Shown here in pieces: positions 25,181 through 29,772 of a DNA stretch of 29,772 bases. The DNA comes from a virus: positions 1 to 29,772 of the IMG/VR virus record IMGVR_UViG_3300043410_000409; one strand, 5' to 3'. The position numbers and the translations under genes are program-made. Within the stretch, counting starts at the first letter, position 1. Each line of letters opens with the position of its first letter. The notes below the pieces were generated by a model, which saw only the letters and a program-made list of their open reading frames with translations, did not search any database and was not told where the DNA came from.

Positions 25181-25792
25181 TTAGAGCCAGCTTGCGAACT
25201 TTTTCGTCTTCGCCTTGCGGTCATCGAGGCCGTGCGTGCCTCCGTTAATCCGCTTCGTCAAAGCAAGGATTGCGCTATCGGTGATGCCCTGATCGCAGAT
25301 CGACCAGAGCTTGTTCTTGTCGAAGAACCACAGGGCGCTTTCGAAGGCGAGTTCAGTTGCCACGAGGTCCGGGTTCGTCATCACGTCCGGGCGATTGATG
25401 TAGTCCGAGAACGCTTTGAAATTCGATTTTCCAGTGAGTTGGAGGCTACCCCTGCCCCTGTACAGCCAACCTTCGCCCGAGGCTTCATCGCCGTTGCCCA
25501 TGCGGTTGGCATAGACGCGGTTGGCGATCTTTTGCGGTTGACGCTCATAGGCACGGGCCAGCGCATCAGTCGGGAAGTACTTGCCAAAGATGCCACGAAG
25601 GCCAGCAGCGCCGTAGTTCAGGTTCTCGCTGAACGCCTTGAAATTGCCGCTTTCGTGCGCCGTTTGAGCAAAGAAATGCGCAGCGCGATTAGGTGATAGC
25701 TTATAGAAAGCTGCAGCCGCTTTAAGCGTGCCCGGACCGAACGCACCATCTGCGCCAACTCCTATTTTCTGTTGAAGATTTACGAGGCTCAT
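25181..25792 (-). CDS. GH19-type endolysin (203 aa)
   Basis: The start is the ATG at 25792, which overlaps the stop of the preceding gene (ATGA). Residues 1-33 look like a short peptidoglycan-binding element (GADGAFGPGTLKAA). The rest is a glycoside hydrolase family 19 (chitinase/lysozyme-like) domain: FAQTAHESGNFKAF with catalytic Glu47, GRGSLQLTGKSNF and ICDQGITDS. It would cut the glycan strands of the host wall at lysis. There is no signal peptide, so it needs a holin to reach its substrate, and candidate holins lie directly upstream. Confidence 0.88.
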   Translation of the reverse strand: MSLVNLQQKIGVGADGAFGPGTLKAAAAFYKLSPNRAAHFFAQTAHESGNFKAFSENLNYGAAGLRGIFGKYFPTDALARAYERQPQKIANRVYANRMGNGDEASGEGWLYRGRGSLQLTGKSNFKAFSDYINRPDVMTNPDLVATELAFESALWFFDKNKLWSICDQGITDSAILALTKRINGGTHGLDDRKAKTKKFASWL

Positions 25793-26289
25793 TGTCCAGC
25801 ACTCCGCCAATCAGGGAAGTCATTTTCATCAACCACGCCGTCTCCGTTGGCGTCGTAGCGCAAATCGTTGCGATACTTTTCCCACGGGGCCATGTCGTCG
25901 TCATCATCCTCGACGTTGTCTGCCACAACCGGCTCTTCTTGAGCGACAACGGGCGTTGTCTCTACAGGCTGATCGACAACCGGCTCGGGAGCAGGCTCTG
26001 GCTCGACTGGCGTAGGTTCTTCCGGCTTGGCATCACGCGCATTGGCGTTGAGGCTCAGGCCGCCCAGCAGGCCGACGAACGCACCGATAACGGTGTTGAA
26101 CGCAGGGCCGATAATGTCGAACACCTTCTGGCTATCGACCACAGTGTCAGGCACGAACAGGCCGACCATCAGTGCGCCGACCACAACAAGGATGACGCAC
26201 GACAGTGTTACGACTGCCATACGGATCGTGAACTCGATGGTATCCTCGATACCGTCCTGCTTGCTCTCAAACTTATCCCAGAAACTCAT
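25789..26289 (-). CDS. Two-TM holin-like protein with EF-hand-like tail
   Basis: I choose the ATG at 26289, seven bases after GGAG; a TTG at 26295 is also possible. Two hydrophobic helices (about 23-46 and 57-80) are followed by a Pro/Glu-rich stretch, a run of acidic residues (128-133) and a final segment with DANGDGVVDENDF (about 146-158), which has Asp, Asn, Asp, Gly and Asp in the positions of a Ca2+-binding EF-hand loop. Two TMs and the place just upstream of the endolysin suggest a holin. The Ca2+-binding tail is unusual for a holin. An exported membrane anchor of the virion type is the alternative. Confidence 0.6.
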   Translation of the reverse strand: MSFWDKFESKQDGIEDTIEFTIRMAVVTLSCVILVVVGALMVGLFVPDTVVDSQKVFDIIGPAFNTVIGAFVGLLGGLSLNANARDAKPEEPTPVEPEPAPEPVVDQPVETTPVVAQEEPVVADNVEDDDDDMAPWEKYRNDLRYDANGDGVVDENDFPDWRSAGQ

Positions 26290-26291
26290 GC

Positions 26292-26798
26292 TCAATCTCC
26301 TTTGCTGGCAAGCGGATTACTAAGCGTCTTGTTGATCTTGTCGTCCATCTGTTTTTCAAGGTCTTTAATACGACGCTGTTGCTCCTGATCCTGCTGCCGC
26401 AGTTCGCTGATGATAGCACGCTGCGATTGCATTGTCTCCCTCTCGGACACTTGGCTTCTGGCCGAGACTGCGTCAACCGTCTGGCGGGCACTCATGACGC
26501 CGCTGCCAAGGCTGGAAGATAGCGAAGCGAGGTTATCCGAGAGGTACTTGGTTGTTTCCAAGTTCATCTTAATCATCTGCTCGTTGCTGTCCTGCCGTTC
26601 CTTCATCTTGGTGAAGTCGTCGCCCATCGACGCATACGTCTCAGTGACTTCCTTCATGGTAAGGAATTGCTGATACACCTCAAAGCCACCCCAAAGCGCG
26701 CCGCCAGCGGTAGACAAAGCCGTGATGAGGGCGAACAGCTTGCCACCCGTGAAGGTCATGCCTCCGAACTCTAAGCTGGTCTTTTCCTCGTCACTCAT
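26292..26798 (-). CDS. i-Spanin-like membrane coiled-coil protein (168 aa)
   Basis: The start is the ATG at 26798, preceded by GGAGGA at 5-6 bases and overlapping the previous stop by 8 bases. Residues about 19-38 form a hydrophobic helix, and residues about 45-150 form a long coiled coil (MKERQDSNEQMIKMN and RQQDQEQQRRIKDLEKQMDD). This is the layout of an inner-membrane spanin (Rz type) and also of many phage XhlA-like or unknown membrane proteins. Its position in the lysis run makes a spanin likely, but I find no lipoprotein partner. It has no catalytic residues. Confidence 0.6.
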   Translation of the reverse strand: MSDEEKTSLEFGGMTFTGGKLFALITALSTAGGALWGGFEVYQQFLTMKEVTETYASMGDDFTKMKERQDSNEQMIKMNLETTKYLSDNLASLSSSLGSGVMSARQTVDAVSARSQVSERETMQSQRAIISELRQQDQEQQRRIKDLEKQMDDKINKTLSNPLASKGD

Positions 26799-28314
26799 AC
26801 TGGTCCTCCACCATTGCGTTCCACGCCGCATCCTGAGAGCGCATCATGCGATAAAGCTCCCAGTAGGCGTCAGGTATCTTGCGCTTTTTATAGATGTCCT
26901 TTGGTGCATAAAAGGGTGCATCTGGAATGCGAGCCTGAACATACGAGCCGTAGCCCGCAGGCACTACAGCCATCTCGGCCATAGCATCGTTCGTGTTGCC
27001 AGTCATCTCAGGCTGCGGCCCCATCTCTGGCATAGAGTTAGACAGCAGTTCCATCGTGGTGACCTGCGACGCGGGGCTGCCCATATCGTCCTGCGCTGGC
27101 GGCTGCGCCACCTCAACTGCCAGTACATCAGGCTCGACGCTGGCTGCCTTGAACCCGCTGTGTAGATCATCCGTCACGGCCTGCTCTGCATCGGCTACGG
27201 TAACTGTGGTGACGGTCTGCTGAGGCACGTCTTGCGCCTCTTGCGCCATCTGTACTCGCTCCGTTACCACATTTGTAGTGGCGGCCTCCGACTGCGTAGC
27301 TGCCTGCTCTGTAGCTACGGGTGCACTGCTTTGGCTTTCAGTAACGCTGGCAGCGGCAGCAACCGCCTCGGTTGCGGCGATCTGTTCACTGCTTTGCGCC
27401 GCGCTATCCTGTTGCTCCATACCGCCAGCCGCCAGCGCCAACACTTGGTCGGGCGATAAACGCTCAGCCACCTTTTCAGTTTCTGCTTTTGGCTCTTCGG
27501 TGCGCGCAGCTTCATCGACTTGATTTGCCGCTTCAGTGGCAGTCTCAGCAGTGATCTCTTGCACTTCGGCGGTCGCTTCAGCAACGACAGGCGTATCTGC
27601 TATGGCTTCCGCAACTATGTCAGATTGGGACACAGTTTCTGCAACAGGCGTTGCCACCGGGGTATATGACTGGACGCACTCAGGCGCGTTGGGCGTGGCT
27701 GCGCAGTCTACAGTTGGCGTCACGACCGGCGCTGTTGGTGTCAGTAGACCGGACTGAAACGACAGGTTAGCGACGTTGGTGCCAAGAAATAGCTGGATAT
27801 TATCATCAACGCCGGGGCCAGTGATGCCAGCGGCTACGATGTGGTACCTGTTAGCAACTGCGCCGTAGTTGATCTGGATAGCGCCGCTGGGCGACAGGTT
27901 GATCTCGAACGTCTCTGAGTTGTTCGTGCCGTACTCTTTGGTGCCGTACCAGCCGAACAGCGCATCAGTCGATGTTAGCCTGTAATATGGGTTACCCCCG
28001 CTAATGAGATCGGACCAGTACGCATAGATCGTGTTACGCTGCGCTTGTTCCATAGGCATACCATTGCAGCACAGGCTATCGCCCGACTGGAATGAGACGA
28101 AGCCGTTGCTCGACACCCATGCGCTGGTGAACGTCTGGCCGAAGTACTCAAACGGAAAGCCAAATTCCACGAGCCGGGTGTTATCGTCGCCCAGATTGAG
28201 CGGCGTCATGGTAGTCGGCGCACCTATGATCTGCGCCGGTAGAAGCGTGGGGTCGTAACTCTGAGCGCTGACAGGTGCGGCAAGCAATGCCAGCACCAGC
28301 GCAAGGCGTTTCAT
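26791..28314 (-). CDS. Secreted beta-domain protein with acidic stalk (507 aa)
   Basis: A clear signal peptide (MKRLALVLALLAAPVSA, cleavage near residue 18) is followed by a beta-rich domain (about 40-190) with FGFPFEYFGQTFTSAWVSSN, a paired Cys82-Cys83, an AYWSDL segment and FEINLSPSGAIQINYG, recalling nidogen-like adhesive domains. Residues about 215-410 are a low-complexity Ala/Glu/Gln/Thr/Val stalk with few Lys or Arg. The last 60 residues (IPDAPFYAPKDIYKKRKIP and onward) look conserved and basic-aromatic. The gene is coupled to the repeat protein upstream (ATGA) and the spanin-like gene downstream. Its function is unknown; an envelope or extracellular role at the end of infection is an inference. 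Confidence 0.7.
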   Translation of the reverse strand: MKRLALVLALLAAPVSAQSYDPTLLPAQIIGAPTTMTPLNLGDDNTRLVEFGFPFEYFGQTFTSAWVSSNGFVSFQSGDSLCCNGMPMEQAQRNTIYAYWSDLISGGNPYYRLTSTDALFGWYGTKEYGTNNSETFEINLSPSGAIQINYGAVANRYHIVAAGITGPGVDDNIQLFLGTNVANLSFQSGLLTPTAPVVTPTVDCAATPNAPECVQSYTPVATPVAETVSQSDIVAEAIADTPVVAEATAEVQEITAETATEAANQVDEAARTEEPKAETEKVAERLSPDQVLALAAGGMEQQDSAAQSSEQIAATEAVAAAASVTESQSSAPVATEQAATQSEAATTNVVTERVQMAQEAQDVPQQTVTTVTVADAEQAVTDDLHSGFKAASVEPDVLAVEVAQPPAQDDMGSPASQVTTMELLSNSMPEMGPQPEMTGNTNDAMAEMAVVPAGYGSYVQARIPDAPFYAPKDIYKKRKIPDAYWELYRMMRSQDAAWNAMVEDQYE

Positions 28315-29321
28315 TTCTTAGGCTTCTTGTCGGGATTAGCCAGCCACGCCGCCTTTGCCTTGTCGCCAATCAGGCCGTCGTAGGGGCATGGCGTGCCAGC
28401 TTCCCACATAGCCTCAAAGATGCGACGGTCTTGGCAGAGCAGGCTAACGGCAGCCACGCGCATACCCATATCGTACAGCGTCTTGCTCAGTTTCAGGTTT
28501 TCGCAGTTGTGGTCGCGGATCGCCTTGCCAGCCGAGAGGCCGAAGATCTGCGTCTGCACAGCACCGCTCGCGCCAGTCGTGCAAACATCTTGGCTGTAGC
28601 TCATCATGCTAGGCGCGATGGCGCTAGGCGGCGGCGACTTCACGTTCTGGTCAATGACTTGCCGCGAGACGTTTTCGCTATAGCTAGTGCTCTTGCTGTC
28701 ATTGACGTTGACGTTCTGGTTGACGTTTTCCGACGTGCTGGCCGAGACGTTCTGATTGACGTTGGTGCTGGTCGATACGCTCTGATTGATGTTGGTGTTC
28801 GTCGCCGTGCTAGTCGAGGTGCTGACGTTCGTGTTCAGGTTCTCAGACGTGCTGGTGTTCTGGTTGACGTTAGTGCTGGCAATCGTGCTGTTGGTCGTGT
28901 TGTTGACCGTCTGGTTCACAGTGCTGGTAGACACGTCCGTGTTATGGTTCGTGTTCGTGGCTGTGACCGCAGAGGTGTTCTGGTTGATGTTCGTCAGCGT
29001 GCCCGACTGAATGTTGTTGTTCGTGCTCGTCGAGGTGGACGTGTTCACGTTGTTATTGTTGTTCGTCAGCGTACCCGACTGGATGTTATTATTCGTGTTA
29101 ACATTGGTCGCGCTGGTGGTGTTCTGGTTGATGTTGGTCACCGTACCAGACTGGATATTGTTGTTCGTGTTGACGTTCGTCGCCGTGCTCGTGGACGTGT
29201 TGACGTTCGTGTTCGACGCTGTGCTGGTGGTCGTTGTGTCGTAGACGTAGTTCGTGGTCTGCGCGACCACGGTGCTACACCAAGCAACCCCAACAAGGAC
29301 AAGATAGCGGCGATTAATCAT
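28311..29321 (-). CDS. Secreted Asn/Thr/Ser repeat protein with four-Cys domain
   Basis: A signal peptide-like N-terminus (MINRRYLVLVGVAWCSTVVA) precedes about 200 residues (30-228) composed almost entirely of Asn, Thr, Ser, Val, Gln and Ile. NNNIQSGT occurs at 53-60, 77-84 and 101-108, with an exact 24-residue period. Later units vary (TNVNQNTSTS, TNINQSVSTS). A C-terminal domain (about 229-336) is Pro-linked, non-repetitive and has Cys247, Cys273, Cys296 and Cys312. The composition suggests a stacked beta-solenoid or amyloid-like fibre. The lipobox position has Trp before Cys15, so it is probably not a lipoprotein. It lies in the lysis run. The function is unknown. Confidence 0.75.
   Translation of the reverse strand: MINRRYLVLVGVAWCSTVVAQTTNYVYDTTTTSTASNTNVNTSTSTATNVNTNNNIQSGTVTNINQNTTSATNVNTNNNIQSGTLTNNNNNVNTSTSTSTNNNIQSGTLTNINQNTSAVTATNTNHNTDVSTSTVNQTVNNTTNSTIASTNVNQNTSTSENLNTNVSTSTSTATNTNINQSVSTSTNVNQNVSASTSENVNQNVNVNDSKSTSYSENVSRQVIDQNVKSPPPSAIAPSMMSYSQDVCTTGASGAVQTQIFGLSAGKAIRDHNCENLKLSKTLYDMGMRVAAVSLLCQDRRIFEAMWEAGTPCPYDGLIGDKAKAAWLANPDKKPKK
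28680..29240 (-). repeat. Degenerate tandem repeat inside the Asn/Thr-rich gene
   Basis: The coding repeat is most regular at 28998-29021, 29070-29093 and 29142-29165, three imperfect copies 72 bases (24 codons) apart. Further left the repeat is irregular, built of Asn-Thr and Ser-Thr codon runs. Synonymous changes between copies suggest old duplication with selection on the protein. Confidence 0.7.
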
Positions 29322-29482
29322 ACGCGGAAAGCAATCGTTGCAAGGAGGCCAATGATAGCAGCAGCCGCGCCGATCAGCAGGCTTTCGAGCCGCTTGATGC
29401 GCAAGATCGTTTCCTTCCAGCGCTCAGCGCACACGGCTTCATGCGTGGTCAGGCGGACGTACAGTTCGTGCGGATCGACCAT
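29318..29482 (-). CDS. Small membrane-anchored protein (54 aa)
   Basis: This short gene starts with the ATG at 29482, which overlaps the preceding stop (TGATG), and ends at 29318-29320, overlapping the next ATG (ATGA). The product starts MVDPHELYVRLTTHEAVCAE, has a short basic amphipathic helix, and ends in a hydrophobic helix (about 35-52, LLIGAAAAIIGLLATIAF). The helix-plus-single-TM architecture recalls XhlA-type lysis proteins. It could be a holin partner of the lysis run, but the assignment is an inference. Confidence 0.6.
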   Translation of the reverse strand: MVDPHELYVRLTTHEAVCAERWKETILRIKRLESLLIGAAAAIIGLLATIAFRV

Positions 29483-29772
29483 CACTTCAGGTTCCGCAGC
29501 TTGTAGATGGTGCTCAAGTACACGCCGGTCAGGCTGTCGATCAGGTTAGCGACCGCGCGGTTGCCCAGACAGATGTCTTCGTGGTTGCTTTCGATCCAGT
29601 CGGCGTCGCCCTCAAGCAGCGCCAGCACGTCGCCTTTGGGCGTCTCTGGCGCCGGGATGCTGCCGATCAAATCAAATGCGCCCTGATAGGCTTCGACCAG
29701 ATCGTCGATCGCCTCAATCACGTCATCGTAGAAACTGCCCAGCGCCATGTGCTTGGAGAAGCTGCCTTCACC
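29482..29772 (-). CDS. DUF5856/ferritin-like phage protein, 5' end cut by window
   Basis: The open frame continues past the internal ATG at 29748 to the window edge, adding GEGSFSKH before MALGSFYDDV. The SFSKHMALGSFYDDVIEAI stretch matches the continuous first helices of DUF5856-type phage proteins, so the ATG at 29748 is probably internal and the real start lies outside. The visible 96 residues are helical and end in NLIDSLTGVYLSTIYKLRNLK. Relatives have ferritin-like helix bundles of unknown function, and a Dps-like protection role is speculative. It is the first visible gene of the lysis run, coupled to the 54-residue protein by TGATG. Confidence 0.7.
   Translation of the reverse strand, partial: GEGSFSKHMALGSFYDDVIEAIDDLVEAYQGAFDLIGSIPAPETPKGDVLALLEGDADWIESNHEDICLGNRAVANLIDSLTGVYLSTIYKLRNLK

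Follow-up and report, generated by a model that had tools for sequence, protein, structure and literature searches.

A three-gene set of aquatic phages encoding a putatively exported Asn/Thr/Ser repeat protein, with a possible role in breaching the envelope late in infection or releasing progeny

Beta-solenoid ice-binding proteins present a Thr-rich face with a 12-residue periodicity, and in phage T7 the lysis genes sit between the tail-fibre and terminase genes. Pelagiphages carry CsgG/CsgF clusters, whose proposed roles range from aggregation to lysis timing (PMC7029224, PMC9599517, PMC9004378). The locus compared here with such systems lies in IMG/VR record IMGVR_UViG_3300043410_000409, a linear fragment of 29,772 bases; the whole record is referred to as the window. 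A minus-strand gene at 28311-29321, designated A, encodes an Asn/Thr/Ser repeat protein of 336 residues; the next gene was designated B and the one after it C. The initial annotation had described a predicted secreted protein with about 200 low-complexity residues, an exact 24-residue periodicity and a separate four-cysteine C-terminal domain, encoded in a lysis operon, and all of these features were recovered. It overlooked that A forms a fixed set with two other genes and that the Cys domain has cellular relatives. We consider it somewhat less than an even chance that A, B and C form an exported, inner-membrane-anchored complex aiding late envelope breach or progeny release.

The A-B-C gene set in aquatic phages

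Every non-redundant locus with 3.2 kb or more of sequence beyond A (69 loci) carried B and then C downstream of A. B was signal-peptide-like in all 69 loci and carried an FY..IY-type tail motif in 62. C ended in Asn-Pro-Leu (NPL) without exception, compared with 1 of 2,847 control open reading frames (ORFs) drawn from the remainder of the same loci; its sequences were coiled-coil-like, with an N-terminal membrane segment in 68 loci. Signal peptides and lipoboxes of the A proteins were called by a simple hydropathy/AxA rule. The three genes were present in T7-like, T4-like and very large aquatic phages. Judged from sequence, A belongs to a fixed A-B-C gene set that is widespread and previously undescribed; nothing was found that describes the A-B-C linkage or the cellular relatives of A.

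The Cys domain of A was detected by tblastn in 11 of 50,697 phage records, namely the pelagiphages HTVC115P, HTVC202P, HTVC033P, HTVC023P, Baldr and the T4-like Mosig, together with Votkovvirus S28C10, the roseophages CRP-810 and CRP-207 and two uncultured phages. An IMG/VR search using six peptide patterns from A alone returned 399 relatives, on contigs of up to 364 kb. Cultured phages of SAR11, which is among the commonest bacteria of the sea, belong to the T7-like, T4-like and very large phages that carry the module, and this breadth suggests that it is probably important during infection in natural waters. Module-bearing phage contigs (L170-L194) were also binned in metagenome-assembled genomes of Archaea, Bacteroidetes, Actinomycetota, Marinimicrobia and others, probably through misbinning; genome-contig matches outside named bacteria were judged to be mostly misbinned phage contigs, since many also carry C.

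All four C-terminal Cys residues of A were invariant in the 94 non-redundant relatives with a complete domain, which suits an exported disulphide domain, and residues 271-328 were helical in the AlphaFold model (predicted local distance difference test, pLDDT, mostly 75-94). A signal-peptide-like N-terminus was present in 90 of the 94, in agreement with the earlier prediction of secretion; A of the window had a signal-peptidase-I-like site and no lipobox. The phrog_20531 profile matched residues 141-313 and also matched the HTVC023P and Baldr members. There was no Pfam family match to A at E 0.1, and none of Pfam, NCBIfam and PHROGs assigned a function to A, B or C. In line with the initial annotation, no described function was found. 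A hydrophobic tail formed the last 20-30 residues of 17 of the 94 A proteins (L078, L071, L077, L045, L052 and others). Most of these 17 end in a GIGALLGVLVHKLF-like sequence. The hydrophobic tail is perhaps a membrane anchor and is consistent with membrane proximity.

The N-terminal part of B switched type between phages and the tail persisted. AlphaFold placed a beta domain at about residues 25-200 of the window's B (pLDDT mostly 80-94), followed by a disordered stalk and helices at the tail; a fold search of this protein against the PDB gave weak matches (best Z 5.4). There was no tblastn match in phage isolates to the window's B tail or to one long B, and B is a rapidly diverging protein. 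B is annotated as a 'putative carbohydrate binding domain' in Votkovvirus and HTVC033P.

Such a protein might serve in receptor masking, which in phage T5 is carried out by a small lipoprotein. Here the variable N-terminal domain of B and the arm of A would be displayed or released at the infected-cell surface and cover the phage receptors, blocking superinfection and stopping released progeny from sticking to debris. The swapping of the B domain among unrelated types above a constant tail, the carbohydrate-binding label in two phages and the predicted export of both A and B fit this explanation. However, the B domain had no confident fold match, and genes of this kind need no endolysin neighbour, yet A-B-C often has one; receptor masking is regarded as unlikely, although far from negligible.

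Two proteins labelled 'lysozyme', CRP-810 gp51 (L087:6156-6578) and CRP-207 gp73 (L196:3292-3873), have the membrane segment, coiled coil and NPL end of C, and these labels look wrong. In HTVC115P a toxin-activating lysine-acyltransferase annotation (L082:11237-11686) lies a few genes downstream of the module.

The repeat region of A

Asn, Thr and Ser made up 66.5% of residues 22-230. The sequence NNNIQSGT occurred at residues 53, 77 and 101, a step of exactly 24, as first described. Since any 8-mer was present three times in only 1 of 2,000 residue shuffles of A, the three copies are beyond chance. Their codons differ synonymously with the amino acids unchanged, which indicates that the copies are not a recent DNA duplication. 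When the window's A was divided by residue parity, one class contained 45 Asn and 27 Ser and the other 45 Thr, 16 Val and 6 Ile.

The same alternation was found across the family. Lag-2 self-similarity exceeded z = 4 in all 61 long-repeat relatives; the best lag was usually 12 and no odd lag passed. Spacings of the SG[TDS]xT motif were even in 188 of 188 cases, mostly 12, and repeated 5-mer pairs were an odd distance apart in 67 of 6,253. Thr fell on a single parity in a median of 89% of cases (minimum 80%) among the 61 relatives; the parity signal of hydrophobic residues alone was weaker than that of Thr/Asn/Ser. The 24-residue step is therefore 2 x 12, and the family rule is even spacing with strict two-residue alternation. 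A single register was held across 120 to more than 300 residues in all 61 sequences, which is the pattern of an extended two-faced beta-structure.

Even spacing would also arise by slippage, if the repeat grew by six-base (two-residue) steps in a dispensable linker, and would then be without structural meaning. Repeat length does vary greatly among relatives, and dipeptide expansion likewise yields even spacing. The synonymous codon differences among the NNNIQSGT copies argue against this origin, and the maintenance of one register in every sequence would need selection against odd shifts. Slippage is considered improbable, an estimate that answers a separate question from those given for the four possible roles.

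In an AlphaFold model of A built with 51 sequences, strands repeated at intervals of about 12 residues, with low confidence (pLDDT 56-64), and this model suggests that the repeat may be a beta-solenoid. The PDB fold search with A was weak, the best matches being RP2 (Z 3.7) and CAP1 (Z 3.5), both of them beta-helix proteins; a BFVD search returned mostly A's own unnamed relatives. The repeat region exceeds 300 residues in some relatives and is almost lost in others that keep the Cys domain.

CsgG was not detected in the window or in any of 50 A-bearing records, six of them whole phage records, with HTVC023P and Mosig included, and the IMG/VR records may be fragments; the control genomes were positive. 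With no Curlin or other Pfam match and no CsgG in these 50 records, membership of A among the curlins was not supported and a pairing with curli was rejected. The A-B-C set and the curli-type clusters of pelagiphages are separate systems. The beta repeat of the original structural proposal was supported by the alternation in 61 of 61 sequences and by the predicted strands.

These data also bear on the idea, raised by the initial annotation, that the two-faced repeat forms amyloid-like or beta-solenoid fibres in an extracellular fibre or matrix; it would then derive from a bacterial surface protein family. Strict alternation, even-only spacing and predicted strands are what such a fibre would show; the weak beta-helix matches point the same way, as does the position of the cellular homologues (see below) next to other exported Ser/Gly/Asn-rich proteins. 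Conversely, the repeat is almost gone in HTVC115P and ctXG6705, though the Cys domain, B and C remain, the CsgG pore is missing from the 50 records, and the structure model of A is of low confidence. A fibre or matrix role is thought quite unlikely.

Lysis surroundings and the proposed complex

A recognisable endolysin was located within 6 kb of the module in 26 of 48 loci with sufficient flank, a count that excludes matches seeded by the CRP-810 and CRP-207 'lysozymes', which are C proteins, and a doubtful Votkovvirus peptidase. In the T7-like Votkovvirus, A-B-C lies between the tail-fibre and terminase genes, the position that the lysis genes occupy in T7.

In L022, L052 and L069, A-B-C comes directly after genes for an Rz-like protein, an o-spanin of the lipoprotein type and an endolysin; Rz/Rz1-like genes also adjoin A in L045. 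The sister phage L009, whose A is 72% identical to that of the window, has an overlapping Rz/Rz1-like pair directly after the endolysin (PHROG Rz-like spanin; E 9.5e-4 and 1.1e-3 when the two proteins were searched singly, 1.1e-7 when the genome was searched). In the window, no ORF with a lipobox was found in the vicinity of the operon; one may lie beyond the fragment or be absent. The initial annotation had suggested that A acts in place of an o-spanin. This candidate was rejected: a lipobox was called in none of the 94 A relatives, and Rz/Rz1 genes coexist with A in several phages and in the sister L009, so that A is no o-spanin substitute in these phages. C had no spanin family match in PHROGs or Pfam; it shares with i-spanins an N-terminal membrane segment and a predicted periplasmic coiled coil, and since separate i-spanin genes coexist, membership of that group is not claimed.

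The proposed envelope complex draws on features read from the sequences, namely the gene set, signal peptides and a membrane segment called by simple rules, conserved ends, the alternation, and an endolysin nearby in about half of the loci; from these we infer mutual binding of A, B and C, their layout in the envelope, their timing and their role. The three proteins would be made late, together with the lysis genes. A and B would leave the cytoplasm via their signal peptides, and the N-terminal segment of C would fix this protein in the inner membrane, with the coiled coil and its conserved NPL tip extending into the periplasm. If the inner membrane anchors C and both A and B are exported, a periplasmic complex would be the simplest layout. 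The conserved ends of the three proteins look like mutually contacting parts, and the core would comprise the four-Cys domain of A, the tail of B and the NPL tip of C. The variable parts look like host-contacting arms: the length-variable two-faced beta repeat of A, and the exchangeable N-terminal domain of B on its long disordered stalk, would point outward as far as the wall, the outer membrane or the surface glycans. The complex would help to breach or remodel the envelope and free progeny alongside holin, endolysin and, where present, spanins. A more specific version, an undescribed envelope machine of aquatic phages in which the NPL tip of C holds B and the beta-solenoid arm of A and which adds a breach or release step beside holin, endolysin and spanins, is plausible but doubtful. 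If a role in lysis or release is correct, holin-endolysin-spanin models miss a part for these phages.

Several observations weigh against this proposal. About half of the loci have no recognised endolysin within 6 kb, cellular homologues occur in non-phage chromosomal settings, and in the N4-like Achromobacter phage JWDelta a homologous domain lies in the early region, apart from the lysis genes. It is mainly JWDelta, together with the loci lacking an endolysin close by, that speaks against a pure lysis role. In JWDelta gp25 (L202:5485-6417) the four-Cys domain follows a Gly/Asn/Gln-rich repeat, and its annotation notes similarity to ORF070 of Ralstonia phage RSL1.

A and B could alternatively be added to the particle as a virion accessory fibre, for example at lysis. 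Virions commonly bear repeat proteins and exchangeable lectin-like domains, and virion analysis of the related JWAlpha and JWDelta identified only a few bands (PMC3915230) and is compatible with this role; published virion proteomics contained nothing on A. Signal peptides on A and B and the membrane segment of C are ill-suited to cytoplasmic assembly, and PHROGs, Pfam and NCBIfam gave no named tail or capsid family match for A or B, the C-terminal domain of A included. A place on the virion is given a very low probability.

Read along the minus strand, the window has genes for a 54-residue membrane protein, then A, B and C, then a membrane protein with two segments and finally a GH19 endolysin (Table 1). 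Adjacent genes of this run overlap or almost touch: the start of A overlaps the stop of the preceding gene and the stop of A overlaps the start of B, in line with the lysis operon that was originally described. The 54-residue protein had no Pfam match and no clear PHROG match, and the two-segment membrane protein had no family match in PHROGs or Pfam. Upstream of the operon, 29482-29748 (-) encodes an 88-residue protein with a DUF5856 match (E 9e-9).

Table 1. Features of the lysis-type operon in the window
Feature	Position	Strand	Basis
Small protein of 54 residues, C-terminal membrane segment, holin-like candidate	29318..29482	-	Sequence/translation; directly upstream of A
A, exported Asn/Thr/Ser repeat protein with four-cysteine C-terminal domain, 336 residues	28311..29321	-	phrog_20531, unknown function, E 1.6e-14
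A residues 1-21, predicted Sec-type signal peptide without lipobox	29259..29321	-	Sequence, simple rule
A residues 22-230, Asn/Thr/Ser region, Asn/Ser face and Thr/Val/Ile face	28632..29258	-	Alternation; predicted strands about every 12 residues, pLDDT 56-64
NNNIQSGT copy 1, A residues 53-60	29142..29165	-	Exact match
NNNIQSGT copy 2, A residues 77-84	29070..29093	-	Exact match
NNNIQSGT copy 3, A residues 101-108	28998..29021	-	Exact match
A residues 247-334, four-Cys domain (Cys 247, 273, 296, 312), helical from about residue 270	28320..28583	-	Invariant Cys; AlphaFold
B, 507 residues: signal peptide, N-terminal beta domain, disordered acidic stalk, conserved C-terminal tail	26791..28314	-	First long ORF after A in 69/69 loci
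B residues 19-200, N-terminal beta domain, varies between phages	27715..28260	-	AlphaFold pLDDT mostly 80-94, residues 31-180
B residues 452-507, conserved C-terminal tail (PFYxPKDIY ... DQYE)	26794..26961	-	FY..IY-type motif in 62/69 loci
C: membrane segment at the N-terminus, then coiled coil, NPL at the C-terminus; ATG at 26801 as probable start	26292..26831	-	NPL-ended ORF in 69/69 loci
Membrane protein, two hydrophobic segments and acidic tail, holin-like candidate	25789..26295	-	Sequence; annotated start TTG, likely ATG inside
Endolysin, GH19 / chitinase class I	25181..25792	-	phrog_181 endolysin E 1.4e-61; PF00182 E 6.7e-8

Cellular relatives and comparison with described systems

The Cys domain was also found in cells, on a Variovorax megaplasmid, on Burkholderia and Novosphingobium replicons and in a 4.1-Mb gammaproteobacterial genome (in the GTDB sense). 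A profile built from phage sequences only matched the cellular four-Cys proteins with E values of 1.4e-15 to 1.1e-9 (Z = 1 million) and JWDelta with E 5.5e-5. The cellular proteins have in common with A a signal peptide, a Ser/Asn/Thr-rich region and the four Cys, and they adjoin other exported Ser/Gly/Asn-rich proteins; the domain also identifies an uncharacterised bacterial family of exported proteins. These relatives are rare, with one clear genome in about 370 (first class) and one marginal genome in about 385 (second class), besides G048 and G045, which were left out of this count because they were picked as holding matches. The Novosphingobium protein (L201:8509-9777) extends, as read from its sequence, into an OmpA-like C-terminal domain, which counts in favour of the proposed envelope complex. 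Burkholderiales clusters (L195:6905-8905, L211:8930-10741, L199:7225-11000 and L200:7186-11000) consist of the four-Cys protein, preceded by one or two exported repeat proteins rich in Ser/Gly/Asn and followed by another small exported protein, and regulator-like genes lie near those of Variovorax and B. multivorans.

No known system tested here matches the parts of A-B-C. A is a member of phrog_20531 by profile, and the PHROG itself carries no function. The four-Cys proteins of Burkholderiales and Novosphingobium differ in their chromosomal setting and extra C-terminal parts, and neither B nor C was seen with them. Ice-binding beta-solenoids resemble A in the Thr-rich face and the 12-residue period; there was no sequence or confident structural match, and the resemblance is a lead only. 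Curli and type VIII secretion share with A an exported, Asn/Gln-containing two-faced repeat and occur, like A, in pelagiphages, but A is set apart by the missing Curlin and CsgG matches and by a four-Cys domain not known in curlins. Like the Rz/Rz1 spanins, A-B-C would combine exported and membrane-anchored late proteins with an inner-membrane coiled-coil partner that has a conserved tip, in lysis surroundings; it differs from them in having no lipoprotein and in standing beside separate Rz/Rz1 genes in the same operons.

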